Source: Helianthus annuus
Lineage: Eukaryota; Streptophyta; Magnoliopsida; Asterales; Asteraceae
Length of the DNA stretch: 64,000 nt
Direction of reading: 5' to 3'
Assembly: GCF_002127325.2 (NCBI RefSeq)
Contig: NC_035436.2
Coordinates: forward strand, 123,042,771 to 123,106,770
In this document: piece after piece, positions 4,453 through 59,014 of the stretch
How positions within the stretch are numbered: position 1 is the stretch's first letter
How the letters are laid out: each line of letters opens with the position of its first letter
The notes under the pieces: generated by a model
Told to the model about the DNA's origin: nothing
Databases searched by the model: none
Seen by the model: the letters and a program-made list of their open reading frames with translations, nothing else
Position numbers and translations under genes: made by a program

Positions 4453-5206
4453 TGTTATGGGCCATTTTCTGAGCATATATATATCCTGACTAATATCTTG
4501 CTTTTGACTATTTGCTTGTGATCAGGATACTGGATCGGGATATTGGTAACATCCTGGGCGATATCCTGGTGTTCACTAAATAATACACCTGCAGGTAGGA
4601 AGCTGTAAGTCACTAACGGTCAGATGGACTTCTTCTCCTAGAGACTCGGGCGAATTAGTTATTTGAGAGACGTTGGGCCCGAAAGACCAGGTCTACAACG
4701 TTCAAGTGGGGAATATCCGCCGGATCCCGGTTTAATAGGATAGTTTGTTATATTACTTTTACTATAAATAGATGGGGCGGATCAGATTAAGGCACATAAC
4801 TTTACACTTCACTCTTTCGCACACTTTAGCTCTCTAGCTTCTAGCAAACACTCTCCATAAACACTTGTACTCGAATTACATTGTAAAACCTAGTTGATCC
4901 GCACTACATCTTGCACTGTATCCTGACATTTGAAGTAATAGAAGAACAAGGCAGCTGCGATTGTCAGCTCCCGAGGTTTTGTGCCGGCGATCTAGATTGA
5001 TCAAGGGCTTTCCTCGTACATCACGTGTCAACCTTTATTTTTATGCACATTGTTTGATCGTAGATACAGCTCTATATCCTGAGCCGTATCCTGAAACTGT
5101 TTTTGCAATTAATCTGGTTAACATTTTTTCGACACTTATTTCTAGCACACTACCTCACTTAACTAATTTGATCACTTAATTGCTTTGGTAATTTTTGACC
5201 AAAACA
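4453..5206 (+). repeat. 5' LTR of Tat-A
   Basis: It begins TGTTATGGGCC and ends ACCAAAACA, directly followed by the primer site. A 13-bp stretch (within 5148-5166) is absent from the 3' LTR. A likely TATA box, TATAAATAG, lies near 4764. Confidence 0.93.
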
Positions 5207-10857: not shown

Positions 10858-10862
10858 AAGAT

Positions 10863-11592
10863 TGTTAGGGCTGGATTTTTATTATACGTGATCCTTACAC
10901 GTGATCCTAACCAGTGATCCTTGTTTCTTTGGCAGACAGTGATCCTCAGCAGGACTTCAGGATCAGGATCATGGGACATTATAGGATCCTCATACTAACG
11001 GTCACCTTCGCTTAATGCAATGTTATTTTTGCAGGAACATCTAGCAGGATACGCTCTAAGCATCATAATCAAGGGACGCGTCTTCACAATTATGGCATGA
11101 GCTTAATCAAAGATAGACGTTGCCAAGGATATGGAAACTTAGCTTGATTTAAGGGCGGCAATTTAGGCTAGATTGTCTTTTATTTCTAAAGGGGTAATGA
11201 GTTGATTATTAGTCATTTTACCTAAAATAGGTCACCTACACTTGTATAAATACCACTCTTCCTCATTTGGAAGAACACACGACGACATACAACGCAACTC
11301 TCACACACTTAGACACTCGAAACAATAGTGATCCTTGTACTCAGCTCATTATCATCCGAAGTTGTAACCATTTTGTTCTTATATTGAAGTTTGGTGATCG
11401 GTAGTTGCCATCACCCGAGGTTTTTTATGCCGGAGATCATATATTGATCAAGGGCTTTTTCCTCGTATAAATCATTGTGTCTTTGCATCTCTATCACGAA
11501 AGTGATCCTTTACTTTTATAATTAACCAAGCATCATACCCCGTTTACATAAAGTTTGGTTACATTATCCTTGTGTGATTTTTGACCAAAACA
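10863..11592 (+). repeat. 5' LTR of Tat-B
   Basis: It begins TGTTAGGGCTGG and ends ACCAAAACA. It is rich in GATCC/GGATC words. A TATAAATA box lies near 11246. The primer site follows at 11596-11613. Confidence 0.95.
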
Positions 11593-11595
11593 GTT

Positions 11596-11613
11596 TGGCG
11601 CCCACCGTGGGGC
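11596..11613 (+). other. primer binding site of Tat-B
   Basis: It is identical in sequence and in distance from the LTR (three bases) to the primer site of Tat-A, TGGCGCCCACCGTGGGGC. Confidence 0.8.
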
Positions 11614-11669
11614 AATTGGTGCTTCATTCATAAGAAAACCTTTTGTTCGAAATCATTTCATAGAATTAC

Positions 11670-14238
11670 ATGGCTTCATCATTGAAAAACATGTCCACGG
11701 CAATGTCTGCAGTCACCTCGTCCCAGAACATTCTGCCTCCACCACCGGCAGGATCCCAGAAGAATGCTGAGAAGAGACAAACTCCTACTAATTCTAAAAC
11801 TCCATCTCCTTCTGCTATGAATTCTTATATTCCCAGTACTAGTGATGTATTTACTTTGATTTTGCAGATGAAGGATCGTATGCAGCGGCAGGATGAAACT
11901 AATGAAAGGATCCTCAGGGAAATTGGAGATCTCAAAAGACAAAAGAAAGCGGCAGAGGATCATTCTCCACTGATGCCCAAATCCTTGAGCTTTGATACTC
12001 CAATGATTACTTCTCAGCCATCAGGAATTCCAGACGTGCAAATCATGGGAGAATCAAGAGGATTGCACCACGGATCGACAGCAATGACTCAGGCATTAGG
12101 CTTACACTTCCAGCCGGCAGGATCCTACCCCCAGCATTTGGGATCCTTCATGAATCCGAGAGCCTATCCGGGGGCACAGCAGTTTCAAGGATCCTACTTT
12201 GTTCCATGATCATTCCAGGGCCAAGGATCCTCCTTTGTTCCAGGATCATCCCAGGTTCAAGGATCCTCCTTCGTTCCAGGATCATCCCAGACACCAGGAT
12301 CCTTCCAGATGCCAGGATCCCTAAAAAGTTTGCAAACAGGAAGTCTAGATGTCCATCAAGGGGACTTCATTCCAATGCAGACCATTGCTTCCACTGGTCC
12401 CTCCGTTGTTCCAGAATCCCAGCAATATGGATTCCCTAACCTGAACCCAATGGGAGGTAACACTTTAAATAATTATCCTGCCACTAACCATGGATTCATG
12501 CAGGATACAGGTACCAATCATGCTATGGCCAGGGAGTTGCAAAAGCTAAAAGATATGATCTCAAGTGTTCCAGGGGTAGTCAAGCCTATCCCAGAGATTG
12601 CAGATGGAAGGCATAAGGTATCTCGCTTTGCACCACCAATTTGTGATGCAGAGGTACCCAAAAGGTTCCATATCCCTACTATGAAGCTGTATGATGGTAC
12701 AACGGATCCAGAGGAGCACATAGCACAATACAGGGAAAGGATGGAGATCAATCCTATCCTAGAAAAGTTGAAGGAAGCATGCCTATGTAAAGGATTTGGA
12801 TCCACTCTTACTGGATCAGCTCTTAAGGGCTACTAAGTCTTCCCCCTACTCTATTACTTCATTTGCTAATTTAGTTAATTTATTCAATAACCAATTCTCT
12901 TGTAGTAGAAAATTTGAAAGATTAACTAGTGATTTGTACAGGATAACTCAAAATCATAATGAATCATTAAGGGATTATATAACTAAATTTAGTAAGGAAT
13001 CCTTGGACATTCCCAACTTGGATATGACTACGGCTGTTGAAGCCTTTAAAATGGGACTGCTTAAGGATTCATTATTCTATGATGATCTTGTTATGACACC
13101 ATGCAGGAATCTAGATGAAGTAAGAACTCGAGCACTCAGGTTCATCCGGCTAGAGGATGACAAGAGGATCCAGGAGAGACAAGTAGGATCCTCAAAACAG
13201 GAGAAGCATGGATCCTCCTTCAAGAGCAATAAGTTCAAATCCTACCATAGAAACGATAACCAGAATGTGCATGCTGTTGACCAAGAAGAGGATGATGAAG
13301 ATTATCCTCCAATTTCAGAATACTGTTTTTCCGTTGATAATCATGAACTGATCCTTGCAATGCAGAATCTAGGTGAAAAGGCTAGATGGCCCAGGAAGAA
13401 CGATAAACCATCCGGGACTAAAGACAAGTCAAAATGGTGTGCATACCATGAGGATTTCGGGCATCTAACTGAAGAATGCATGGCTTTAAGAAAAGAGATT
13501 GGATATCTGTTAAGCAAGGGGCACCTAAAAGAATTGTTGGGAAGAAAAAAGCAAAGGACTCAGGATCCTGAAAGGATCCCTGAAAAGGCTCCAGCACCTC
13601 CGGCAAATGCACAAGTGATCAACTTTATTTCCGGAGGATCAGACATCTGTGGTACATCCTTCTCGGCGGCCAAAAGACATGCAAAGGAGTCAAAAATGGA
13701 TAATGGAGAAAGGCCTATTAGAACATCAAGTGTCTCAGAAGGGAAGATGATAACGTTTGATGAGGATGATCGCATTAACATTCAGGACCCTCATCATGAT
13801 AGTTTAGTTATCACTCTCTTTATCTCTAACCATTTTGTCCGCAGGATCCTTATTGATGGAGGAAGCTCAGTGAACATTATCCAGCTTGATGTTCTGAAGA
13901 AGATGGGAATCCCAGAATCAGACATCACACCAAGATCCTCCGTGCTTGTAGGATTCAGTGGGGAAACGAAGAAAACTCTGGGGGACATCAAACTCCCAAT
14001 CTACGTGGAAGGATTACATAATTACCAGAAATTTTGCGTTATTGACTGTTTGTCTTGTTGCAATGTTATCCTTGGCAGGCCTTGGATACATGATATGAAA
14101 GCAGTCCCATCCACCTACCATCAATGTGTGAAGCTCCCTAGCCCATGGGGAATAATCAAGATCAACAGTGATCAGCAGGAGGTTAAGGATTGTTATACCT
14201 CATCCATGAAGCCAACCTCGAAGCCAAGGGAGCAATAG
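11670..14238 (+). pseudogene. Tat-B gag and protease, three lesions
   Basis: Gag starts at MASSLKNMS (11670). Order: Pro/Ser-rich N-terminus, a charged helix near 11860-11950, a Gly/Ser/Gln-rich repeat region (12120-12330), the capsid-like gag domain (about 12650-13170), a CHHC-variant knuckle (about 13438-13480) and a protease with IDGGSSVNII (about 13852). Lesions: TGA at 12207-12209, where the neighbouring repeat units read GGA; loss of one base near 12828, where Tat-A reads LKWLL, shifting the frame; and TAG at 14236-14238 between protease and pol. The last could be a natural gag-pro/pol boundary, since Tat-A also has a stop at the equivalent place. The part from 12838 to 14235 is open. 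Confidence 0.9.
12186..12293 (+). repeat. three 36-bp tandem repeats inside Tat-B gag
   Basis: The units are 12186-12221, 12222-12257 and 12258-12293, each starting CAAGGATCCTCCTT or a close variant. In frame they encode a Gly-Ser-Ser-Phe-Val-Pro type repeat. The first unit carries the GGA to TGA change that stops gag. Two shorter partial units follow to 12322. Confidence 0.85.
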
Positions 14239-17544
<3,306 letters not shown>

Positions 17545-18579
17545 CCATGATCCTTCAGGCATGTGACCCATATATTGAAGTATCCTTAAAGGATCCCGGT
17601 GATATCAGTGATCCTTACTCTGGTAACGTGCTTATCCTAAAACTATTACATTTTCTTACTTTTTACCTAAGGATAAGGATTACGTATCCTTCGTCCTCTA
17701 CTCACAAACCATTTGAGTTATGATAGTTCAGGTATGTTCAGCATATCGTCAAAGATCTTCAAAAGCACCGCAGATCCTTGGGTCCAACCCCAGTTATCCT
17801 TGGGATTATCCCCAGTTTCCGCCAGTAGCGCACGATGATCCTGATATAGTTCACGTCTTTGGGACCAGTACCCACTTCCGGGGCTGACAACCTCATCGTA
17901 CTGGCTATATCTAGGATCCTACGTATAATGGTAGATGTACCATACATCAGTTCCTAAGGTTTCTAACGTTTTCACGTTAGCTAAGGTTTTGACATTTTCA
18001 TGTCACTAAGTTTGGATAGTCGCCAGTAAGGGCCATACTCCAGTTTACATACGATCCTTTGGGCTTATCCCCAGTTATCCTTTGGGCTTGTCCCCAGTTA
18101 TCCTTTGGGCTTGTCCCCAGTGATCCTCCGGGATCATTCTCGTATATTCCTTTGGGCATGTCCCCAGTTACTAATTTATTTTTTACATTGGCTTAGTCCC
18201 AAGTTATGTTTCATTTTTCAGGATTGTCAAAGTTAAAACACATAAGGATCCTTAATCCTTATTGTCCATCAAAATCTTATCTACGATTGTCTCGATTGAA
18301 GGTTAGGATCCTAACTTGGATCCTCAGGTATGATCCTTGACTATTTTTGATTATACTCGTTATCCTAACCAACCCTTACACTTTGACAACCGAACCTATG
18401 ATCCTTGAACTAAAGTACTTTGAGAACCTTCAATATGAGGATATTTGATCTAGGATCATATCCTAAATTTATTAAGCATATTTTTAACTCTTGTCACTTT
18501 AACAAATATACTACAAAAACAATTGAGAAACAAGAAGATAATTAAAGGATAACAACACGAGATAAGCCAGAAAAATTAA
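17545..18579 (+). other. 3' non-coding region of Tat-B with short tandem repeats
   Basis: No gene is seen. Between about 17771 and 18180 a unit of about 23 bp recurs, with the core TTTGGGCTTGTCCCCAGTT. It is nearly perfect in three adjacent copies (18053-18120) and degenerate near 17778, 17801, 18150 and 18188. Each copy contains the inverted pair TGGG/CCCA around six variable bases. Confidence 0.7.
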
Positions 18580-18793
18580 GGTTATATTATTAACAAAAGG
18601 ATCTTTAACCCTTTCAAAAAAGTTGTCAAAATTGCCAACCCACATTTCTACCAGCAAAACGTGGCCCGTCCACATGGGTTGGCAAAGGGTGTCCATTGTT
18701 TATGCGGTCTTAGCATTGTGCAGGAAATTAAAAGCGGCAGGATCACAAAGGCTTCATCCCCCAAACAGAGGATCCCTCCACATTTTGCAATCC
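18580..18793 (-). other. conserved block and two hairpins, 3' side of the Tat-B antisense gene
   Basis: On the minus strand this follows the antisense gene stop (18898) by about 105 nt. Hairpin a spans 18740-18793: arms AGGATCACAAA/TTTGCAATCCT, where plus-strand C-A mismatches become G-U on the minus strand. Hairpin b spans 18632-18685, with an 11-bp perfect stem TTGCCAACCCA/TGGGTTGGCAA. The loops share CCCRTCCAC-like and TTCA-like strands with the three Tat-A hairpins. The 15-mer GTTAATAATATAACC (minus) at 18580-18594 is identical in Tat-A (23318-23332) and may include the polyadenylation signal of the antisense transcript. Confidence 0.55.
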
Positions 18794-18897
18794 TACCTAT
18801 TGTTCAAAGGATCCAGGATCCTTAACCCTAAAAACTATTGTTCGGAGATTACAGACCATAAATTGTTCACAAACCATCAACAACCCAATCCAGCAGC

Positions 18898-20500
18898 TCA
18901 CACCTCTGCTGCTCCATCACCACCAGCTTCTCCATCCTGATCCTTCTCAGCATCACCACCTTCCAGCATGGGGATCTCCTCAGCCTCATCCTCATCCTCC
19001 AGCTCCGCCAATCTTGCCTTCCAGCCTTCAACATCCCATGTGCTCTTATCGAAGGAAGGATCCTGAGCCTCCGTAGCCATCTGCAGTTGTATCTTGTACA
19101 TAGCTATCGCGGCAGAGACTTTAGCATCCTGAGTAATGTCATGCTTTTCATAATCAAAGTTGATCAATGCTTTGACAGCCTCGTCCTTAACAGCCCGGAT
19201 CTCCTTCTCAAGATCAGCAATCTTGAGATCCTTCTGCGCACCCATCTGTTGGAGGTCGGCAATTTGACGATCTTGATCTTCAACCTGGTTAACATAAGTC
19301 TCCATTTCGGTGAATTTCTACAAGAAAAACAGGAAAACAACATCAGACATAGGTGATCCCTAAACTTGTCAGGACAATCAACAGGGGCAGTGATCCTAAC
19401 TTCGTCAAAATAATCAAGGAATTGCTGACGAAGGAGGGGAAATCCTTGGAGATCTTCAGAAGTTTTCCTCTTCTTCCCCTTGCCTCGGATAGGTGCCTTA
19501 GGAGCTGAAGCTGAAGGACTAGCAGCAGGAGCCTTCTTCCTCGAAGACTTGACGTTGGCAAGATCACTTATCCCAAATTTGGAGGCAGATTTGACAGACT
19601 TGGCAGACTTCCCAGCGCCTACACAATCAAAATCAAGATAAGTTGCCTTATTAATCAAACAATCTTACATATAATTTATTTTCTATAAGGATACTTAGTT
19701 GACATAGTGGCAGATGCAGAGGATACTTCTTGTGAGTCTTGGACGGTGACTTGGAAACTTCTGACCTCAGGATCGAGCTTTTTAAAAGCTAAGACTCTTT
19801 CTCTTGCAGCAGGGGTCAATTTTAGGTGAGCAACGGAAATAGCTGCACAAAAGATAAAAGAAAAGAGACGTTAGTGATCCTCATCACATAAGGCAAGTCT
19901 GATAGTGATCCTTCCAGGATCCTCTATCCTACCATGAGTAGCCCATTCCTTGGGCAGATCCTCCCCATCTGGGATGGTATCCCTTCTAACAAAGAAAAAG
20001 CGACGCTTCCAGTTTGTATCGTTCTTAGTGACCTTGAAGACAGGGTGATCCTCCCCGGCTTTCCGCTTCAGCAAGTATCGATGAGAACCAAACGTGGTAA
20101 GGTCATAAAGCTCGGCCAACTCCGCCATCCCAAGATCAATCTTTTTCTGCTCGATGATCCTCTCGAAGGTATACAGAACCCTCCAAATCATCGGCATGGC
20201 TTGGATATAGGAGATGCCGATTAAGGAAAAGAAAGATTGAGTGAAGATTGGAAAAGGATACGAATATCCTATGGTAAATGGAGTAGCAGGAAAAGCCACC
20301 CAGGCGTCTGAAACAAAGTCGCTCAAAGCTGTAGGTACAAAGGATTTGAAAACTGCGTTCGCCGGAAAGCGATGACGAATTCTGTCTACGTGAGCATCAG
20401 TAAAGCAACACCTCTCCGTAGGAGAATCCTTGATGATCCCTTGGCTTTTTAGGGGACTACTCTTCTTGGAATCCTTGTGTGGAGAATTCCGGAGCAACAT
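18898..20500 (-). pseudogene. Tat-B antisense gene (putative gypsy-type transposon domain), splice donor lost
   Basis: The likely start is the ATG at 20500 (MLLRNSPHKD); an upstream in-frame ATG exists at 20545. Exons on the minus strand: 20500-19933, 19842-19699, 19618-19401 and 19317-18898. Phases match Tat-A, which would give about 449 residues. Exon 1 has exactly the same length as in Tat-A (568 nt) and the conserved block YPFP...PMIWRVL of the plant 'putative gypsy-type transposon' family. Exon 3 is Ser/Lys/Ala-rich and basic. Exon 4 looks coiled-coil with an acidic tail. The intron 2 donor reads CTAAGTAT at 19698-19691 instead of GTAAGTAT. The next GT, four bases on, shifts the frame, so this copy is probably dead. 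The protein's function is unknown. Confidence 0.75.
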
Positions 20501-20656
20501 GCTTGTGACGGAACAGAAACAGAATAAAAGCAGAAAACAGAGCAAGAGAAGAAAGAAAGAAAAGAGAGAAGAGGAGAATACCTGATCAATCTTCGGTGGA
20601 TATTATAAAGGGAGTATATCCTGAATTTAAATACAAATTGATCCTCACCCTATCTC

Positions 20657-20665
20657 CTATTTATA
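20657..20665 (-). promoter_or_regulatory. TATA box of the Tat-B antisense gene
   Basis: Read on the minus strand this is TATAAATAG, 112 bases before the first in-frame ATG (20545). A CT-rich leader (about 20510-20580) follows. This suggests the antisense gene has its own promoter inside the element, just before the 3' LTR. Confidence 0.6.
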
Positions 20666-20822
20666 ATCATGATCTGCAGGGATTGTCACATCTATGACGT
20701 AATGATCACAACGGCTAGTCCGGATGTAACGGCTAGTTATTCGGAGTCGCCCGTTGGAGATAAGATCGAAACAAAATACAACTCGTCAATTTACAATAAA
20801 CTCCTTATATTTTGGGGGCAAT

Positions 20823-21552
20823 TGTTAGGGCTGGATTTTTATTATACGTGATCCTTACACGTGATCCTAACCAGTGATCCTTGTTTCTTTGGCAGACAGT
20901 GATCCTCAGCTGGACTTCAGGATCAGGATCATGGGACATTATAGGATCCTCATACTAACGGTCACCTTCGCTTAATGCAATGTTATTTTTGCAGGAACAT
21001 CTAGCAGGATACGCTCTAAGCATCATAATCAAGGGACGCGTCTTCACAATTATGGCATGAGCTTAATCAAAGATAGACGTTGCCAAGGATATGGAAACTT
21101 AGCTTGATTTAAGGGCGACAATTTAGGCTAGATTGTCTTTTATTTCTAAAGGGGTAATGAGCTGATTATTAGTCATTTTACCTAAAATAGGTCACCTACA
21201 CTTGTATAAATACCACTCTTCCTCATTTGGAAGAACACACGACGACATACAACGCAACTCTCACACACTTAGACACTCGAAACAATAGTGATCCTTGTAC
21301 TCAGCTCATTATCATCCGAAGTTGTAACCATTTTGTTCTTATATTGAAGTTTGGTGATCGGTAGTTGCCATCACCTGAGGTTTTTTATGCCGGAGATCAT
21401 ATATTGATCAAGGGCTTTTTCCTTGTATAAATCATTGTGTCTTTGCATCTCTATCACGAAAGTGATCCTTTACTTTTATAATTAACCAAGCATCATACCC
21501 CGTTTACATAAAGTTTGGTTACATTATCCTTGTGTGATTTTTGACCAAAACA
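20823..21552 (+). repeat. 3' LTR of Tat-B
   Basis: It is preceded by the purine tract TTTTGGGGGCAAT (about 20810-20822), the plus-strand primer, and followed by the AAGAT duplication. It differs from the 5' LTR at five sites. Confidence 0.95.
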
Positions 21553-23317: not shown

Positions 23318-23542
23318 GGTTATATTATTAACATGCCAAAAGTTGTGCTTTTGGTTTCACCTCAAATCGAGGCCCATCCGCCAAAAGCACGGTTAGTTTT
23401 TACCATATTTACGCAATGATTGAAGGTTTCATCTCAAAACGAGACCCATCCGCCTCCAACCATTGCATCATTCAAAACAAGTTATACTAACTGATGACCA
23501 AGGGCTTCATCCTGAAACCCAGGACCCATCCACATTTGGTCA
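23318..23542 (-). other. three tandem hairpins with conserved loop strands, 3' side of the Tat-A antisense gene
   Basis: Hairpin 1 (23345-23390) has a perfect 10-bp outer stem GTGCTTTTGG/CCAAAAGCAC. Hairpin 2 (23413-23466) has a 14-position outer stem with two A-C oppositions on plus that are G-U on minus. Hairpin 3 (23495-23542) has a 7-8-bp outer stem, TGACCAA/TTGGTCA. Each has an inner stem: CCTC/GAGG, TCTC/GAGA and TCCTG/CAGGA. Each also has near-constant unpaired strands, TTCA on the left and CCCATCCRC on the right. The 15-mer at 23318-23332 is identical in Tat-B. The array lies 114-311 nt after the antisense stop codon. Confidence 0.65.
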
Positions 23543-23655
23543 CCATATTGTTCTAATGCAGGAAATGTAAATTGTCTAAACAAGCCACAACCATGAAATT
23601 TAAAAAAGTGGGCTCCGGCCTCGGCAACAATATCCATCATCGCCCACTTCGCCGC

Positions 23656-25414
23656 CTAAGAGGCAGCACCTTCTTGATCAGCAACCTCTTTCGCAGCATC
23701 TGGACCAGCATCACCCTCAGGATTCTTCTCGGTGTCATCACCAGCATTGGCCACTTCCTCTGCCGCCTTAGAAGGCTCTTCACCAGCATGCTTTGCGGGA
23801 TAAGCGACAGGATGGCCTCCAAGATCCTGTAATTTCGCTTCCCAAGCCTTGACATCCCAGGAGGGGCATTCGAAGCCCAATGCCTTGGCCTCATAAGCCA
23901 TCCTTAACCTGGCTTGGAGTAGGGAAATAACAACAGATGCTTTGAGGCTGTCCCGGTAGGAACTCATATCCTGCTGGTATTGAAGAAGGGCGGCATCTAG
24001 TTTGGCTTGAGCGTCCTCATTGGCTTTGTGAAGGGCAGCTTGGTGCTCCTGGGTCATGACCTTGAATTTATCTTCATAATGCTGGGACTTGGCAGCCTCA
24101 ATCGCTCCCTGATCAGCTATAGTGGCTTCAACTTTTTCGAGATTGATCTCCAGCATCTTATTAAGCCCGCATGCGTCTTCATACAAGTGCATGAGACGTT
24201 CCAAGCCCTGCAGTTAAAGACACAGGTATCAATACGAAATGAGCAGGATAATGGTTAACATGCATATTCAGGATATCGGAAGGGAATTTTTTACCTGCTT
24301 GAGGAATGAAGTGGCTTTACTGAATCCATGGTTCTCGAGAGAGAATGTCTCGGAGGCCGCTGGAGAATCCATTTCTTTTCCCTTCCGGGAACTAGAGGCT
24401 CGGGTCCTGGATGCAGGAGGAGCTTTAGGAGATGTAGTGATCTTGGAAGTGGTAGGTTTTGGCATGGCAGACAACTTCAGCTTAGGTTCTTGCTTGACAG
24501 GTACAAGGCTAGAGTAACTATCCAACTCGTCAAGTTGGAAGCCTTTGAGGTTGACAACTAGTACTGCACAAGGGGAAATATTTTTAAACTCATCATAAAT
24601 AAAGATAATTACTGAGAAAATGCTTACCAGACATCTCAGAACTTGACTTTTGGCTTGAATCGGTAAGAGACAGGGAGAAGGTTCTCTCACTAGCAGGAAG
24701 TCGGTAGATTTCTTTGATCCTGGACTCGGATTCCGCACTTGGGGGTGCTAAATCTCTAAAGTTTGCTGCACAAAAACATCAGGATATAAGTCTGAGATAT
24801 AGTTTAAGGATACATTTGGGGATATTCCTAAAACCCTAGATCCTACCCTTGGATAACCATCTAACTGGCAGATGGAAACCCTTGTCAATAGAGTCTCTTT
24901 TAACAAAAAAGAACTTTCGCTGCCATTGGTCTTCGTTCTTGGTAGCTTTGAGGACTAAAGGACTCTTGGAGGTGGAGAACAAAAGAAAACGGCTATCACC
25001 ATGGGACCTCAACCGGTATGCTATGGGGAGGTCTTCAATACACAGGTCAGGGCAATGGCGAGATTTGATTTGATCTTGCACCATCAAAACTCGCCAGACC
25101 ATTGGCATAGTTTGGGCATAACTAAGGCCGGTGAGGTCGAAGAAACGAGAAATGAAGGATGGAAATGGATACCGGAGTCCCAAAGTAAAGGGGTAGGCGA
25201 AAAAGCAGACCCACTCGTCTGATGACACGTCTGATCGCACCTCCCGGTCAAAAGGGCAAATGACTGTTCCAACGGGGAAGGCGTCGGAATCCTTCAGGGC
25301 AGCGATATCGGCATTATTGAAGCAGCAGATTTCTTTTTCCGGTTCTCGTATGAGGTTTTGACTCGTGAGGGTTGGGACTGGTTCATCTGAACGAGATCTT
25401 GTCCGTGATGCCAT
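23656..25414 (-). CDS. Tat-A antisense gene, four exons, intact (putative gypsy-type transposon domain)
   Basis: Exons on the minus strand: 25414-24847, 24765-24628, 24563-24295 and 24207-23656 (stop). The introns are 81, 64 and 87 bp, with donors GTAGGA, GTAAGC and GTAAAA and acceptors GTGCAG, GTGCAG and CTGCAG. The joined length is 1527 nt, i.e. 508 residues, with no internal stop. Another ATG four codons upstream (25426) is possible. Exon 1 has the conserved block YPFPSFISRF...PMVWRVL and a cysteine pair (ICCFN), typical of the plant protein family called 'putative gypsy type transposon'. Exon 3 is basic and Ser-rich. Exon 4 is predicted by eye to be a coiled coil and ends in an acidic Ala/Glu tail. 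Antisense extra ORFs are known in the Tat lineage (Grande, Retand); their function is not known. The long open frame in a dead element is notable. Confidence 0.78.
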
Positions 25415-25525
25415 GAGGGGTATCAAGCAAATTATAAGAAAATCAAAGAAAAACAGAGGATGAGAGAAAGGACGAGTACCTGGAAATTGCTTGAAGAATA
25501 ATGATAATAATGTGAGATATCTCAG

Positions 25526-25688: not shown

Positions 25689-26428
25689 TGTTATGGGCCA
25701 TTTTCTGAGCATATATATATCCTGACTAATATCTTGCTTTTGACTATTTGCTTGTGATCAGGATACTGGATCGGGATATTGGTAACATCCCGGGCGATAT
25801 CCTGGTGTTCACTAAATAATACACGTGCAGGTAGGAAGCTGTAAGTCACTAACGGTCAGATGGACTTCTTCTCCTAGAGACTCGGGCGAATTAGTTATTT
25901 GAGAGACGTTGCACCCGAAAGACCAGGTCTACAACGTTCAAGTGGGGAATATCCGCCGGATCCCGATTTAATAGGATAGTTTGTTATATTACTTTTACTA
26001 TAAATAGATGGGGCTGATCAGATTAAGGCACAGAACTTTACACATCACTCTTTCGCACACTTTAGCTCTCTAGCTTCTAGCAAACACTCTCCACAAACAC
26101 TTGTACTCGAATTACATTGTAACACCTAGTTGATCCGCACTACATCTTGCACTGTATCCTGACGTTTGAAGTAATAGAAGAACAAGGCAGCTTCAATTGT
26201 CAGCTCCTGAGTTTTGTGCCGGCGATTTAGATTGATCAAGGGCTTTCCTCGTATATCACGTGTCAACCTTTATTTTTATGCTCATTGTTTGATCGTAGAT
26301 ACAGCTCTATATCCTGAGCCGTATCCTGAAACTGTATTTGCAATTAATCTGGTTAACATTTTTTCGACACTTATTTCTAGCACACTAATTTGATCACTTA
26401 ATTGCTTCGGTAATTTTTGACCAAAACA
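25689..26428 (+). repeat. 3' LTR of Tat-A
   Basis: It is preceded by the purine tract TTTGGGGACAAT, starts TGTTATGGGCC, ends ACCAAAACA, and is followed by the duplication TTGAT (26429-26433). Confidence 0.93.
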
Positions 26429-34076: not shown

Positions 34077-37000
34077 TGTCACACCTTGCTAGTAGTGGAA
34101 GCGTATTGTGTGTGACGTAAGAAAGGTAATCACTGCATTCAAATGTGTAAACATAATAAACAACAACGATGCCATAGATATATTGTTTTCTAAACAAAGT
34201 TTACAAGTTTCCAACGTAGTTTCAAGTTCACCAATGTTCACAACGTTAAACATGAAATAGTTTAAGTTATGTTACACAACTCGAAAGTTTGTTTTTAACA
34301 TAAACATAGTGAGGTTTTGTCCCCTGTATACCCATACGAAGTTGGGATATAAAAGAAAAACCCTCCAAAAGCGACAATCGTTGTCATTGACTTTCCCGTT
34401 TCCCGTAGTGTATCACCGGCTCAAGACTTGTTTCCTGAAATACATATAGTTTTAAAAAGTCAAAAAAAGTTGAGCGAGTTCATGTAGTTATTGTTATCAT
34501 ATGAAATCTTTGTATTCTTGTAGTGAAAACATGGTATGTTATTAGCATTCATGGAGTTTAAGGATCTATCAGTGGGTAGCGAGCCCCTGACATAATGTAC
34601 CATAAGTACGTAACCAACCCGAGACAACTTTGACATTTCTAGGATCACAAAAGCACTCCATGGTATACCAACCAGGAGTGGAGCGTGTCTCAAGCTCAAC
34701 ATATCTACACCTTTTGCACCTTGGTCACTAAGTGATTAATGGTTACTATATCATCATCCTCCTTACGTATATTGATCGTGTTATCATCTAAACCTAAAGC
34801 TAACATACCCATAGTTTTAACATGTATTCCCCTCGATTGTTTTAAAAACAAAACATTGAAATCATTGAAAGGAGGGACATGAACTCACAAGTTTGCGTTC
34901 CTTGTAATCGTACTATCGAAAGTGAGCGTCCGTGTGAGTAAACTACATGTGTACTAACTTAATTAGACACTAGGTCTTTCAGACCTCGTACAAGTTGTTC
35001 ATCTTGAATTCTTATTGTGTTTTCACTTGTCATTTTGGAACAACTTTGTATTTTAGAGTGTTGGTAGTTTGTTCGTTCACTTGTTATGTATATAGATTTC
35101 ATAGGTGCATACATATATTTTATATGTATTGAATTATATGTGAACGACTTCGCCCTGCACATATCCTCGTGCTTCGCACACGTCTCATTGGGCCGAACCT
35201 ATGTCATTGGGACTAAACCCTGTCTTTGGGTTTATCCCACGTTTCTATATCATTAGGCTTTAACTCACGTTTCTATAGTAATTTGGGTACTAGCCCATGT
35301 ACTTTATCATTGGGCCCTAGCCCATGCATGTTAGCAATTTGGGCCTAGCCCAAATATTTTATCATTGGGCCCCAACCCATGCATCTTAGCAATTTGGGCC
35401 TAGCCCAAATACTTTATCATTGGGCTCCAGCCCATGTATCTTAGCAATTTGGGCCTAGCCCAAATATTTTATTATTGGGTCCTAGCCCATGTATTTTAGT
35501 AATTTGGGCCTAGCCCAACTTGATTTTTAGGAGTCCATATATTTAACAATCTTGCATTTTGTAAAAAATTACTAAATATGTAATTTTTATAATTCTCATT
35601 CTTTTATTAAAGAATACTTTGAAATTTTGTATTTTTCTTTCAAGTTTCCGGAATTGTTATCGGTGATGTATATATTCGTACATTCGCCGGGTTGTCTAAA
35701 ATAAAGTGTTAGACATGTCGTTGTGATTGCTTAATATATATTTCTTGTGAGCTCGTCCGTTGTCAGTTTTATTAATTCGTCCGTTTATTCGCTTATGGAA
35801 ACAATATGTTTAGGATTTATTTATGTCCGTTTTCGTTGCATTTATTTGGGAAACATGTAGGCAACATGTATACGTATTTTTGTGTCTTTTTGTATTTGTT
35901 TCTTACAAATATTTCTTGGTATCATGGGTGTATTATTTTGATCACCCTAAATGTATCTAAGTACATACACATGGCACAAAGTACATATACTTGACGAGTT
36001 TCTAAAATATATATTTTTTGTCAAAAATTATTATTAGATATGGTTATTATTTTCACCCATTTATTTTTGTGAAAATATATATTCAAGTTCATAAGAACTC
36101 TTGAATATTTAGGACTTAACCATTTTCATCAAAGCTTCCATAATGACGTTTAAGACCACTAATCGCGTTTAATTTTGTTAATCACCCTTTAACCACATTT
36201 TTAATCGCGATTAGATTTTTAGAAAAATTCGCCATAGTTTCCCCTAAAACTATGGCGTTCCCACGTTATAAAAACGTATTTAAACCATAATCAATTTTCC
36301 AAATCACCACTAATTCATCAAGTATCACCAAAATCATATTTACCACATGTAATCACATATTCCTTCAAAGATTTCTCATATGCATTATTTAAGTTAACTT
36401 TCAAGACTTTAAAATTAACTACTTTTCAAGTTTATTAGCAATTATCAAGACTTTTAAACCACACTTTTTATGGATGTTTTCATATAAACTTGTTTTTAAA
36501 TAAAACCATGTTATTAGTGTTTTTAACAATTCTTGAATCATGATCATTTCATGTCTTATCTTTCAAAAAGCACTAATCCATGTTCATACACATAATACTC
36601 ATGATCTTTGAAGTTGATGATCTTGTATGGTTTAAACATATAAATGTTTAAATCACATTTTTAAGTGTATCATGGCTAGATTAACACTAATCTAAAATCT
36701 AAAATACTACATAAAACAAATCACAAGATCATCATAAACATAAACTTTAAACCACTAATCTTAACAAAATCAATATAATGAACATGATTTCATCAACTAG
36801 ATACACTAATCCACTCAAATAACCACATAATAAGTTTAGATTAGTAGATTATTAGCTTTGAGACTAGGGTTTTTGATTTGATTTTTATTAATTTTTAAGA
36901 TGATCAACTTGTACTTTTGTAAGCTACTAGTAACAAGAAGCTTAAATATGGTGTTTAGAAGAGTTACAACTTTGCACAAGCCAAATAAGAAGAATAATAC

Positions 37001-38286
37001 GAAGGTTAAGCTACAAGAAAGTTCCTAATGATGATCCATTCTTAAACCTTGCATTAATGACCTTAAAGTGCCTTAAATGTGGGTAATTTATGGTGATTAA
37101 TGAAGATTTATGGTGGGGTTAGTGTGGTTTCTTGGAGCCGTGAATTAGGGGAACTTAAAAGGGGTTTTTGATGTTTGAAAGAAGTTGTGAAAATGTTAGG
37201 ATGGTAAAGTGGTAAAACATGTCATGATTTATAAACTTTCACCACCATATAATTCAATAATAATCAATGAACCATGCTTCATTTCTTGCAAGTTTCAACA
37301 TAATTAAAGTGGGGTGGGACCCACTTTGACAAAATTATGTGAATATGGGGGGGGGGAGTGTAACTTTTTATAAAGTTATAAAAAAATCTAGATATTTTGG
37401 TGATTAAATAAAGTATGGTGTTTAGGGTTTAATTGCACCGTTAAGGGGCAATTAGGGATTTAGAATGTTAATCGACCTTAACTGGTTCACTAAACTAGTA
37501 GAAATTGCATTTTGATGCTTTAGATGCTTTCCGTTTGGTCATCGGCTAGTTTACGACACTTTTGCAGCGTACCGAGGAAGTTTTGTTGCACGTTATTTTT
37601 TCGTCATTAAGCGAAGCATGAAGTGATTCCGAGTCCCAAAATAAGCTTAACTAGTTCGCTATGTCTTCCATTTGGTTATTTTGGTGTCGGAAATGTTATT
37701 TACTAGCTTGTCAGTTCGAAAATAGACAAGTTGTGGGGGTTTCAACACAGCACCGAAAGCTTATGTTTCGGACACCCCATTAATATTCTCATATTGTTTT
37801 CATGTATTTGTTATCATTTGTCATAATTCCGAAGTCTCGAAAATGCTAAATTACAGATTCGGACGAGCTAAAATTGTCATATTTCTAACCGAGCGGACAA
37901 TTTTGTGATTAGGGCGTTGTACCGGAAAGTTATGTATTTTTCAAGATGTGTTTCCACATTAGTGTTTCATATATTTATAGACTCAGTTATATTATTCGTG
38001 TGTCGTTTTTCGTTGTTTCATTCTGTTTTCACGGTTTTGCTGGCATGAATAGTGTAACCGTGAATAGTGCGCGCAACACTTTCTACCAACACGTTTAGGA
38101 CATAGTTTAATTGGTTTCGCGACACAACGAGAACCAACATATGTTATATCATCGTTTCCTTGTCCTAACATTGTTACCTCATATACGACACAGTTACGTA
38201 ATTAAATTACGCTAATTGTATGAGATTATACACTAAAAATAGTGATTAGATTGTACGGAATTTCCGGTTAATTGCCATTTGTCACA
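34077..38286 (-). repeat. Chr-1 right LTR (5' LTR on minus), 4210 bp
   Basis: Read on plus it starts TGTCACACCTTGC and ends CATTTGTCACA. It contains a 55-bp tandem repeat array (35281-35520), G runs near 37350, and the empty sites GTTTT (35829-35833) and TTGAT (36614-36618) used by Cop-1 and Tat-A in the other LTR. It is unusually long and has no coding content. Confidence 0.9.
35281..35520. repeat. 55-bp tandem repeats, 4.3 copies, with palindromes
   Basis: Each unit contains AATTTGGGCCTAGCCCAAAT, a perfect inverted repeat (the first unit is a variant), and TTGGGCCCTAGCCCATG, a second one. More degenerate copies of TTGGGN...CCCA extend left to about 35190. Every unit carries several TGGGCY words, the plant 'site II' element bound by TCP factors. 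Confidence 0.85.
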
Positions 38287-38665
38287 TTGTTCGTCTTTCC
38301 TGATCACTCCTCGTATCAGCCGCAAACGGCATTTAGGGTTTTGTTATGTGTATTATAATCACACATATTGCACTTTACCCCTTGAAGTATATCTATAAAT
38401 CAACATGTTCGAAAAGTCATTAAGACCAAGTTTCTTTATTTACATAACACCCCCTTTGAGTTCTACTAAATTGAAACCGACACGTCTAAGAACATACTTC
38501 GCTTTGCGGCTTGCACGTCTTGTTTGTCACTTGCTAAATCAAACATGGTTAAAAAAATATCGGATGTTACAGTTTAGCATATCAAGATCTCGGTTCCACA
38601 ATAGTTCCATTACCGATAGAAAACGTGTCATTCATGTGTAGGATTCTAACCTAGCTAGTGCTTTT
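38287..38665. other. unassigned sequence between two chromovirus blocks
   Basis: I see no gene, repeat or match to other parts of the window. It includes a 78-codon open frame (38405-38641) without recognisable features. This may be the only non-LTR-element sequence in the window. Confidence 0.5.
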
Positions 38666-48896: not shown

Positions 48897-49305
48897 TGTC
48901 AAACCCCCAAAATCCACCTGCGGAGTATCACCGCTTGGGAGCGTGACTGACCAGGATCAAGCCACCAATCATATCGAACATGTAATTAATACCAAATATA
49001 ATAAATGTAAACCAGTCATTCAATATGATAGGTGTTCAAACATAATCATAGTTTTAAAGTATAGCGGAAGCATAAGTACGAAAACCCAAATGTGTAACAT
49101 GAGTTTAATAAGTTTCAAAACATAATCCATGCTCCACAACGACCCGCTCCTCCCTGTGCAAGCTCCATAAATATCTAACGACCTGCAAGGCATGTAACAG
49201 AGGATCAACAACTAGTTGAGCGAGTTCACAGTTAACAGTTCAGTAATAGTACAGTGTGAGTAGTAGTATGTTCGTTCATTATGTCATGTATCGTATTAGT
49301 TCCCA

Positions 49306-49495
49306 TCGCGGCCTCCCAGGCAGGTATGCGAAGATATTAGGGGATGTTCATCCCAGTTATTCTAGACTAGGTTTACCTGTATCGCGGCCTTCCTGGCAGG
49401 TGTGCGAAGATTAGTAAATTACAGTTCGCGGCCTTCCAAAGGCAGGTGTGCGAAGTCAGTCATAATATCGCGGCCAACCCTTGGCAGGTGTGCGA
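49306..49495. repeat. four spaced repeats with variable self-complementary centre
   Basis: The units 49306-49331, 49382-49407, 49426-49453 and 49468-49495 share TCGCGGCC at the left and GGCAGGTGTGCGA at the right, so TCGC pairs with GCGA. The centres are CCCAGG, CCTGG, CCAAAGG and CCCTTGG. The same set is in the other LTR (about 56933-57122), where one centre is CCAGG instead of CCTGG. Confidence 0.8.
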
Positions 49496-50139
49496 AGATC
49501 AGTTCAATAAGTGTTACTAGTCTAGTCGTAGTTCTATCAGCGAAGTATATACAATAGATCATCAAATCCCATTCCCACCCGGGAACCCCATGCCTTGGCT
49601 GTGTGAACTCACCTTGGTTTGCTCGGTATGTTATTGCTTCTAGGGTTGTTAATCGTTTAAGTCCGTTACACACGACCTAGGATATATTGCACATGATTCG
49701 ATGTAAGTGCTTGAAATCAATTAGGGTTTACAAGTCTTGGTGTTCGATCGACTGTGTGTGATATTTGACTACATACTGATCTGACATGGTTTGCACATAA
49801 ATACAGTAATATACAGCAGTTGCAGCAACATATGGTATCATATCATGCAGAACAGAGCACAGTTAACACTTAACAGTTAACAGGGTTTTGAATTTCAGTA
49901 ATGTAGCCATTATAAATATCTCAAACTATAATATCATCAACAATAGTCACACCAAGTTTCATTGCGAAGAAATTCGGACTATCAGCATGCAATCAAAGTA
50001 ACACTATATTTAAATCATAAAAGTCAGGAACAACAACACAACTAAAGGTCGGGCAACAGTTCCAAGTCAAGAAATTCGGACCCAAGGTTATCAAGCAAGA
50101 GGGTTGAATTAGTATACAACAAACTTGGGTTATGCACAT

Positions 50140-50700
50140 GTGGCCAAAAAAACTCGGACATGCATCATTATCAAAGAAAGTCGGAGTTAACCCCCCACTT
50201 ACTGAAACTCGGACATGGAAGTCCTCTAAAAGTCGGACCATGTGTGTGTGTGGGGGGGGGGTTTCCTTGCTTGAAACTCGGACTAGGGGTGGGGTAAAAA
50301 GGTCGAGCAGCCCCCTTCATGAAACTCGGACCTCACTCAAGGTTTAAGGTTGGACAGAATTTGTACAACACAAACAAACTCGGACCCTTTATGTCACATG
50401 AAACTCGGACATATAGTCCCTCTAAACTTGGACCCCTTGTGCTGATGTTTAATGTCGGACATCAATTGATGGGGTTAAAACTTCGGACACAACACATCAA
50501 CAAACTCGGATAACAACCAACAAACAAAGTCGGACTAAGTTACACCTTATTAAACTCGGACATACTTGATTAATTTAAACTCAGACTAAGTGTTGTATGC
50601 ATATAAGTCGGACATGCTTGGTTCATTAAAAGCTCGGACAAGATCTCATGGATTAAACTCAGACAACTAACATCCAATAAACCTCTGACTAACAAATAAT
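50140..50700. repeat. about 20 irregularly spaced AAACTCGGAC-like decamers
   Basis: Words such as AAACTCGGAC, AAAGTCGGAC, TAAGTCGGAC and AAACTCAGAC recur every 20-60 bases. They are not a simple tandem repeat, as the spacers differ. The cluster is duplicated in the other LTR (about 57768-58320). Confidence 0.8.
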
Positions 50701-51409
50701 CATGCGTTCATTGCGATCAAAGCAGTTACGTTTCTATTGTTCAAGCGATCTCACAACCCTAACTTCATACATTTCTACAGTGCAATAATCAATCATCAAT
50801 CGATCATTCAACATATCTTGCATCTAAATCATCAAGCAGTGATAACAACCCTAATCATTTTTCATTAATCAGAATCAATCAAACACGCAGAGACTATCAT
50901 ATGAAAAACTAGGGTTTTAACATCAATCAATCAATCAACAACTAACATCACACAATGATTAAACAATTACCTTGATTCGATTCTAGATGGATTAGCAATC
51001 AAACTTGATGTGAAAGACTTGTGAATCCAAGAATGATAAGAAGGTGGTTGTAGAGAGGATTAGGGAATGTGGGTACGTGTTTTTGATTCTTGTGATGATT
51101 AGTGAATGATTAGTAAAAGAGATTAGGGTTAAGTGTGGTTTAATTTTCACTAATTACACTATACACCCTGAATTTCTATATTTTACACAAGTACACCATT
51201 CCCTAACAATTTCACAATTCCACCACCATGTTCATATATTTACCAGTTTCACAATTAACAAACAATCATGCACAATCACACAATTAAAGCATATATAATT
51301 CCATGGCAATCAATTGTGCAAGTAAACAACTAAATAATACAAGAACGTGCAATAAATGCGAAATAGAATCTTGGAAATTCGAGTTGTCACATTATCCCCA
51401 ACTTAAAAG

Positions 51410-56523: not shown

Positions 56524-59014
56524 TGTCACACCCCCAAAATCCACCTGCGGAGTATCACCGCTTGGGAGCGTGACTGACCAGGATCAAGCCACCAATCATA
56601 TCGAACATGTAATTAATACCAAATATAATAAATGTAAACCAGTCATTCAATATGATAGGTGTTCAAACATAATCATAGTTTTAAAGTATAGCGGAAGCAT
56701 AAGTACGAAAACCCAAATGTGTAACATGAGTTTAATAAGTTTCAAAACATAATCCATGCTCCACAACGACCCGCTCCTCCCTGTGCAAGCTCCATAAATA
56801 TCTAACGACCTGCAAGGCATGTAACAGAGGATCAACAACTAGTTGAGCGAGTTCACAGTTAACAGTTCAGTAATAGTACAGTGTGAGTAGTAGTATGTTC
56901 GTTCATTATGTCATGTATCGTATTAGTTCCCATCGCGGCCTCCCAGGCAGGTATGCGAAGATATTAGGGGATGTTCATCCCAGTTATTCTAGACTAGGTT
57001 TACCTGTATCGCGGCCTACCAGGCAGGTGTGCGAAGATTAGTAAATTACAGTTCGCGGCCTTCCAAAGGCAGGTGTGCGAAGTCAGTCATAATATCGCGG
57101 CCAACCCTTGGCAGGTGTGCGATGATCAGTTCAATAAGTGTTACTAGTCTAGTCGTAGTTCTATCAGCGAAGTATATACAATAGATCATCAAATCCCATT
57201 CCCACCCGGGAACCCCATGCCTTGGCTGTGTGAACTCACCTTGGTTTGCTCGGTATGTTATTGCTTCTAGGGTTGTTAATCGTCTAAGTCCGTTACACAC
57301 GACCTAGGATATATTGCACATGATTCGATGTAAGTGCTTGAAATCAATTAGGGTTTACAAGTCTTGGTGTTCGATCGACTGTGTGTGATATTTGACTACA
57401 TACTGATCTGACATGGTTTGCACATAAATACAATAATATACAGCAGTTGCAGCAACATATGGTATCATATCATGCAGAACAGAGCACAGTTAACACTTAA
57501 CAGTTAACAGGGTTTTGAATTTCAGTAATGTAGCCATTATAAATATCTCAAACTATAATAGCATCAACAATAGTCACACCAAGTTTCATTGCGAAGAAAT
57601 TCGGACTATCAGCATGCAATCAAAGTAACACTATATTTAAATCATAAAAGTCAGGAACAACAACACAACTAAAGGTCGGGCAACAGTTCCAAGTCAAGAA
57701 ATTCGGACCCAAGGTTATCAAGCAAGAGGGTTGAATTAGTATACAACAAACTTGGGTTATGCACATGTGGCCAAAAAAACTCGGACATGCATCATTATCA
57801 AAGAAAGTCGGAGTTAACCCCCCACTTACTGAAACTCGGACATGGAAGTCCTCTAAAAGTCGGACCATGTGTGTGGGGGGGGGGTTTCCTTGCTTGAAAC
57901 TCGGACTAGGGGTGGGGTAAAAAGGTCGGGCAGCCCCCTTCATGAAACTCGGACCTCACTCAAGGTTAAAGGTCGGACATAATTTGTACAACACAAACAA
58001 ACTCGGACCCTTTATGTCACATGAAACTCGGACATATAGTCCCTCTAAACTCGGACCCCTTGTGCTGATGTTTAATGTCGGACATCAATTGATGGGGTTA
58101 AAACTTCGGACACAACACATCAACAAACTCGGATAACAACCAACAAACAAAGTCGGACTAAGTTACACCTTATTAAACTCGGACATACTTGATTAATTTA
58201 AACTCAGACTAAGTGTTGTATGCATATAAGTCGGACATGCTTGGTTCATTAAAAGCTCGGACAAGATCTCATGGATTAAACTCAGACAACTAACATCCAA
58301 TAAACCTCTGACTAACAAATAATCATGCGTTCATTGCGATCAAAGCAGTTACGTTTCTATTGTTCAAGCGATCTCACAACCCTAACTTCATACATTTCTA
58401 CAGTGCAATAATCAATCATCAATCGATCATTCAACATATCTTGCATCTAAATCATCAAGCAGTGATAACAACCCTAATCATTTTTCATTAATCAGAATCA
58501 ATCAAACACGCAGAGATTATCATATGAAAAACTAGGGTTTTAACATCAATCAATCAATCAACAATTAACATCACACAATGATTAAACAATTACCTTGATT
58601 CGATTCTAGATGGATTAGCAATCAAACTTGATGTGAAAGACTTGTGAATCCAAGAATGATAAGAAGGTGGTTGTAGAGAGGATTAGGGAATGTGGGTACG
58701 TGTTTTTGATTCTTGTGATGATTAGTGAATTATTAGTAAAAGAGATTAGGGTTAAGTATGGTTTAATTTTCACTAATTACACTATACACCCTGAATTTCT
58801 ATATTTTACACAAGTACACCATTCCCTAACAATTTCACAATTCCACCACCATGTTCATATATTTACCAATTTCACAATTAACAAACAATCATGCACAATC
58901 ACACAATTAAAGCATATATAATTCCATGGCAATCAATTGTGCAAGTAAACAACTAAATAATACAAGAACGTGCAATAAATGCGAAATAGAATCTTGGAAA
59001 TTCGAGTTGTCACA
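56524..59014 (-). repeat. Chr-3 LTR at the right (5' LTR on minus)
   Basis: On plus it starts TGTCACACCCCC and ends GAGTTGTCACA, followed by the GTTTT duplication. It carries the same repeats as the left copy. Confidence 0.94.

Follow-up and report, generated by a model that had tools for sequence, protein, structure and literature searches.

A hairpin element behind the antisense genes of Tat/Retand-like retrotransposons in sunflower

Nested elements and their antisense genes

The window, that is, the whole 64,000-nucleotide stretch of Helianthus annuus DNA that we analysed, contains two Tat/Retand-like LTR retrotransposons on the plus strand. Element A spans positions 4453-26428, with LTRs at 4453-5206 and 25689-26428 that are 95.6% identical and flanks of TTGAC and TTGAT. 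Nested inside its integrase region is element B (10863-21552), whose LTRs at 10861-11592 and 20821-21552 are 99.3% identical and whose flanks both read AAGAT. Element B is a young Tat-like element within an older one, and an antisense gene is present in both, as an open reading frame between pol and the 3' LTR. At 35829-38288 lies a paralogue that resembles an empty site of the element A insertion, with the two flanks of A aligning side by side and the insertion lacking; it is adjoined by a tandem array of a 55-bp unit (35276-35518, 4.4 copies). Pfam matches to Ty3/gypsy gag-pol (reverse transcriptase, RNase H and integrase) were found in pieces of the gag and pol of element B, and the piece of element A that was scanned matched only SH3_Tf2-1. 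A and B resemble, in element type and gene position, the Retand elements with antisense TRP28 ORFs, which are described as having a long region between pol and the 3' LTR, an antisense ORF and tandem repeats (Vicient 2025, PMC11963269). The spacer between pol and the antisense gene of B carries five copies of a 23-bp tandem repeat (18054-18170), the repeat finder lists none in the spacer of A, and a 36/18-bp tandem repeat (12180-12320) lies within the gag-side reading frames of B. A scan for tRNA genes returned none, and elsewhere in the window a 2.5-kb direct repeat (48897-51391 and 56524-59014, 99.2% identical) perhaps represents the LTRs of a recent, unrelated LTR element.

The antisense gene of element A (23656-25525, minus strand) consists of three open blocks (25525-24836, 24747-24268 and 24213-23656) and has Helianthus homologues, and that of element B (18898-20602, minus strand) also consists of three (20602-19871, 19664-19164 and 19317-18898). 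Each gene lies upstream of its own 3' LTR, and the first block of the A gene shows 39% identity to B. The splits between blocks fall at similar places in the two genes, and annotated Helianthus proteins, for example P0013 and P0017, join such blocks; this joining suggests introns on the antisense strand. A total of 241 homologues of the antisense gene were found, and among the 120 listed, every one named by organism came from Helianthus. Short 'ena' contigs that carry the gene may be transcript assemblies. Relatives of the antisense gene or of the integrase were not found in viral contigs, and prokaryote contigs yielded just one distant integrase, in a MAG. In the family of the B gene, most of the best 150 scored among 13640 candidates had no internal stop, a pattern that suggests recent amplification with the gene intact.

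In a scan for TRP28 (PF04195), the A and B antisense proteins had no Pfam match at E≤0.001, and one of the six homologues scanned, P0111, gave E=0.019, below the curated cut-off. A second protein search with P0111 returned two proteins, and its genome search returned largely the element A family. The TRP28 domain of Retand antisense proteins is predicted to bind DNA, and the role of the Retand antisense gene is called unknown (PMC11963269). An AlphaFold model of the antisense N-terminal domain (pLDDT 78.3), made from 56 aligned sequences of which 55 were hand-picked for spread from the 120 listed homologues, had no PDB match at E≤0.001, and the model therefore says nothing on RNA binding.

Five hairpins behind two antisense genes

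Five hairpins lie on the minus strand behind the two antisense genes, and a covariance model built from them (R1) finds only these five in the window. Behind the A gene, hairpin 3 is the first after the stop codon (23493-23544, 60.5 bits with R1), followed by hairpin 2, which has an outer stem of 14-16 bp (23413-23466; R1 match 23415-23464, 60.1 bits), and hairpin 1 (23345-23390, 45.4 bits). Behind the B gene, hairpin a is the first after the stop (18736-18797; R1 match 18741-18792, 48.0 bits), at the same place as hairpin 3 of A, and is followed by hairpin b (18632-18685; R1 match 18633-18684, 53.2 bits). The distance from the stop codon to the first hairpin is 111 nt in A and 100 nt in B. 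The first-pass annotation had described, in element A, three hairpins with near-constant unpaired strands and with outer and inner stems that differ from one to the next, and we found both stems and strands where it had placed them. Read along the minus strand, each A hairpin runs in the order outer arm, GGATGGG, inner stem, short loop, inner stem, TGAA and outer arm, and the core is better written on this strand, as 5'-GGAYGG(G) ... GAA-3'.

Several comparisons with shuffled sequence indicated that the arrangement is not a chance product. The pattern TTCA-N(8,20)-CCCATCC occurs three times in the window, always in the A array, compared with a mean of 0.51 in 100 shuffles, one of which reached three. 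When the flanks were shuffled 200000 times around each fixed core, the run of pairs legal on the minus strand was reached in 6 cases for hairpin 1, in none for hairpin 2 and in 31 for hairpin 3. A descriptor combining the loop with an outer and an inner stem, scanned over both strands of the window, returned the five known hairpins on the minus strand and two weak candidates elsewhere on the plus strand, and 20 shuffled windows gave between 0 and 2 returns. Across the five hairpins, 89.6% of 77 cells were paired, 14 of 16 pairs showed a double change, none of 500 shuffles reached this and slid registers gave 34-51%; the structure behind the 89.6% figure was drawn from the same five hairpins, which favours the result. 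The 243-nt A array folded with z = -4.98 as minus RNA and z = -4.17 as plus RNA.

The spacers of A and B between pol and the antisense gene are otherwise hardly alignable. Only two matches with E<0.01 were found between them, one covering the core of the hairpin nearest the stop, the other a block of 53-61 nt that holds the poly(A)-signal-like sequence TGTTAATAATATAACC (antisense strand). This sequence is located at 23318-23333 (minus strand) in A and is identical to B at 16 of 16 positions; the B block is at 18580-18595 (minus strand).

In hairpin 2, the A-C mismatches on the plus strand had been read as G-U pairs on the minus strand. The stem is corrected to an outer stem of 16 bp with three G-U pairs as minus RNA; hairpin 3 as minus RNA has a 10-bp outer stem with one G-U. 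Hairpin 1 of A favours neither strand, since the plus strand allows four extra pairs using three G-U and the hairpin folds about equally on both, with z = -3.33 on plus and -2.68 on minus.

Recurrence, covariation and strand

Related loci were sought in a single genome of 3.01 Gb, and R1 was applied to sequence lying behind antisense genes or surrounding copies of the array. All eight array loci examined (8 taken of 40 scored matches, one of them the window's own) carried hairpins, three each. In the family of P0045, a hairpin was found in 21 of 30 loci and in 21 of the 23 where the last exon and more than 200 nt beyond it were covered; seven of the nine misses had too little downstream sequence or lacked the last exon, and two (L109 and L115) were true misses. 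A set of further stretches, in which five places overlap the earlier set, gave a hairpin in 19 of 20, the one miss (L147) being without the last exon. Matches to P0091 gave a hairpin in 11 of 20 and in 11 of the 12 where the last exon and enough sequence were covered; R1 found none in the twelfth (L157), and the other places comprised seven without the last exon in the stretch and one (L175) with too little sequence. Hairpins were also found in 18 of 20 matches to the B family and in 11 of 20 matches to P0084, places that had been chosen before their sequence was seen. In all six sets, every R1 match at E≤0.001 lay on the strand of the antisense gene; one match on the other strand (L132) had E=1.1. 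As a control, R1 was run on viral contigs chosen because they contain the loop sequence (758022 bases, 89 pattern matches), where its best match had E=0.077. The eight places in the further-stretch and P0091 sets that had no detectable antisense last exon had no hairpin; the stretches of the B family and P0084 mostly begin past the last exon and cannot inform on such places.

Rather than being absent from most related elements, an outcome that the first-pass annotation had named as adverse to its reading, the hairpins recur in this one genome behind the antisense genes of families that have diverged; all the data come from this genome, and related copies in it are not independent. R1 derives from the hairpins of the window and may therefore overlook divergent forms. 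The number of hairpins per locus was one in 43, two in 27 and three in 8 (78 loci, with five places counted twice); an array is therefore not in itself a requirement. By family, one hairpin is seen in the P0045 type (for example L138 and L146), two in the B type and three in the A type, as if hairpins had been duplicated inside the 3' UTR.

The unpaired part of the element is its conserved part: in 23 representatives, drawn from 73 distinct hairpins at <92% identity, the columns of the internal loop were 0.82 identical and the outer arms 0.42. Covariation was assessed with our own script, which uses a phylogeny-based null in the manner of R-scape. For the 23 sequences, three column pairs were significant at E<0.05, all of them in stems, and the best five of 1540 pairs were stem pairs. 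When 30 representatives (of 91, <92% identity) were aligned by sequence alone, the single significant pair was a stem pair. Gap-free arms anchored on the loop (27 representatives at <87% arm identity, after three of the 91 hairpins that could not be anchored had been dropped) gave one significant pair in 435, again in the stem, and 78% of cells paired compared with 34-53% in slid registers. A set of 11 held-out sequences (<95% identity) gave no significant pair; its top-ranking pair, at E=0.27, was in the stem. The strength of column covariation depends on the alignment; several arms have slipped by one nucleotide, and a column test cannot follow slips. An alignment-free arm swap was also carried out on 22 hairpins of <80% identity, in which the hairpins' own arms paired at a mean of -17.8 kcal/mol, compared with -7.2 for swapped arms (0 of 10000 permutations), and the own partner was the best of 22 for 13 of the 22 hairpins. 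The stem covariation proposed from the window was recovered in three alignments (3, 1 and 1 stem pairs) and in the arm swap, but not in the set of 11.

Sequence motifs behind the hairpins point to the antisense strand. In plants, the near-upstream element of the poly(A) site usually consists of AATAAA-like hexamers. Of 23 distinct flanks, 16 had AATAAA or AATAAT in the 60 nt that follow the last hairpin, whereas dinucleotide shuffles gave a mean of 2.5 and a maximum of 9 in 1000 runs; in the controls, the count was 2 of 23 in the 60 nt before the first hairpin and 3 of 23 on the opposite strand. Strict AATAAA was present in five of the 23 flanks (a count reached by 5 of 1000 shuffles), and seven had neither form. 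The position of these hexamers indicates that the order of stop codon, hairpins and poly(A)-like signal recurs, and the presence of such a motif behind the last hairpin supports placement of the hairpins in a 3' UTR.

The folding comparisons also favoured the antisense strand. RNAalifold gave -23.94 for the antisense and -11.71 for the sense orientation of the 23 sequences, and the antisense value was also the lower in the 30-sequence and held-out sets (-18.31 vs -6.32 and -16.51 vs -7.82, respectively). Own-arm duplexes were more stable as antisense RNA in 17 of 22 hairpins. Wobble pairs flanked by Watson-Crick pairs, counted as G-U to A-C on the antisense strand, stood at 12:3 in outer and 11:0 in inner stems; in the anchored arms the ratio was 11:5, and a strand-symmetric count over the five window hairpins gave 9:3, with all three A-C pairs at the outer end of hairpin 1. 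Overall the antisense bias is clear, if not unanimous, and the sequences are related to one another. The first-pass suggestion that the hairpins are built for the antisense RNA accordingly holds for the sum of the strand tests but not for hairpin 1 of A.

These results bear on the alternative that the structure works in the sense genomic RNA, in packaging, dimerisation or full-length export, with the antisense gene a bystander. The stems do pair on the sense strand, where the arm swap was also passed (own arms -14.7 vs -6.2, 0 of 10000), and for hairpin 1 of A the plus-strand z is the better one. However, the antisense orientation folds better in the alignments and in most own-arm duplexes, the wobble bias and the AATAAA or AATAAT motifs are on the antisense strand, and hairpins were missing from the eight places where no antisense last exon was detected. 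We therefore consider a function in the sense RNA improbable.

Interpretation and related systems

The best overall explanation, which we hold to be probable, is that the hairpins act in cis, as an RNA element within the 3' UTR of the Tat/Retand antisense mRNA, a transcript that we infer. That the antisense 3' UTR contains a functional structure is very likely. The structure, its strand preference, its position and its spread across families are properties visible in the sequence of one genome, and the spread, the covariation, the strand tests and the poly(A)-like motif all support the first-pass proposal of a structured 3' UTR element belonging to the antisense transcript. The antisense RNA would thus be laid out as a stop codon, about 100 nt, one to three hairpins and an AATAAA or AATAAT poly(A)-like signal. 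In each hairpin, a fixed, asymmetric, purine-rich internal loop, with GGAYGG opposite GAA, would sit between two stems of varying sequence: an outer one that changes freely and measures 10-16 bp in the window, and a short inner one.

Near-identical loops on freely changing stems beside a poly(A)-like signal look like a protein-binding control element. In such an element, the stems would serve to position the loop, the loop would be the recognised part, a protein would bind each internal loop and further copies would raise the avidity. The array directly adjoins the poly(A)-like signal, and for this reason the favoured effect is on the antisense mRNA, most likely on the formation of its 3' end, its stability or its export. 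We place the chance that the hairpins form a protein-binding array at about even; the binder and its effect are what we infer from the arrangement. The candidate binder is a host protein or the antisense protein. The antisense protein itself is an unlikely binder, and slightly less likely again is the specific arrangement in which it recognises the internal loops in its own message and thereby tunes polyadenylation or export. If that arrangement were true, the element would encode a self-contained RNA-protein circuit similar to U1A/PIE or Rev/RRE that sets the dose of the antisense gene and, through that dose, how active a large class of plant retrotransposons is.

An ordinary structured 3' UTR, serving nuclease protection or spacing only, with a loop that binds nothing specific, would agree with the freedom seen in hairpin number and stem sequence. 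The asymmetric loop is nevertheless kept across diverged families and is unneeded for bulk structure, and we give this explanation little credence. Even less probable is that the hairpins act in the minus-strand single-stranded cDNA during reverse transcription, through pausing, strand transfer or priming. This cDNA has the same polarity as the antisense RNA, so the wobble asymmetry fits, as does the location between pol and the 3' LTR, but it needs neither a poly(A)-like signal nor a place directly behind the antisense gene.

The hairpins are very unlikely to be a new small self-cleaving ribozyme with a twister-sister-like lantern shape. At the gathering cut-off, Rfam had no match in the window or in 13 related loci, and at E≤10 the array gave only three chance-level matches to other families, none of them credible; the three-way junction of hammerheads is absent from these hairpins. 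Two stems around a conserved asymmetric internal loop do resemble those described in PMC11620745, and plant retrotransposons with hammerhead ribozymes exist (PMC4918200), but the types in the available text of PMC11620745 are cleaved at a conserved CA on the longer strand of the loop, and GGAYGG, the common form in the sunflower hairpins, contains no CA. Among candidate folds, a k-turn reading was rejected on an arrangement that did not fit by eye, and hammerhead and twister-sister-like readings found no Rfam support. Template switching or palindrome repair in reverse transcription yields double changes, and retroelements replicate by a switching enzyme, but the origin of perfect stems by this route, with no selection, is a very doubtful explanation for an element whose unpaired core is best conserved (0.82 vs 0.42) and whose wobble intermediates are strand-biased (10 G-U and 3 A-C among distinct outer-stem events).

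The hairpins were compared with known systems. The U1A polyadenylation inhibition element (PIE) is close to the poly(A) signal and its internal loops are recognised, and its loop sequence differs from the GGAYGG/GAA loop. U1A binds these duplicated structured sites in the 3' UTR of its own pre-mRNA and inhibits polyadenylation (PMC9977717). The likeness, as far as the available description of the PIE goes, lies in the repeated structured sites in a 3' UTR, whereas the sunflower hairpins are one to three separate hairpins in a plant retrotransposon, have no Rfam match and have a putative binder. In the constitutive transport element (CTE), repeated internal loops are the site for TAP/NXF1, and both the CTE and the RNA transport element (RTE) serve the sense RNA, whereas the hairpins described here belong, by strand and position, to the antisense mRNA. 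CTE and RTE are cis-acting retroviral RNA export elements (PMC1363727).

HTLV-1 HBZ and HIV-1 ASP are, like the sunflower genes, antisense genes of retroelements; they are driven from the 3' LTR and show inefficient polyadenylation and nuclear retention, but the available text of PMC10186651 mentions no array of covarying hairpins ahead of the antisense poly(A) signal. For the Retand elements themselves, the main text of PMC11963269 contains none of the terms hairpin, secondary structure, stem, conserved motif or inverted repeat. The first-pass annotation knew of no described RNA motif of this form, and this agrees with the lack of an Rfam match and with searches of the open-licence literature, which showed none among the titles and abstract beginnings listed. 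On this scope we regard the motif as new among cis-acting 3' UTR RNA elements, and its assignment to an antisense transcript of an LTR retrotransposon is unusual.

That the 3' end is conserved and structured is direct evidence, at the level of sequence, that the antisense RNA is under selection as RNA, and the hairpin element offers a probe for finding antisense genes and a concrete hypothesis for a binding site. Genome searches with antisense genes returned 12968 to 14763 unscored first-look candidates per query, which overlap and of which 150 were scored each; judging from these counts, the element may rank with the most highly repeated of the structured RNAs of sunflower.
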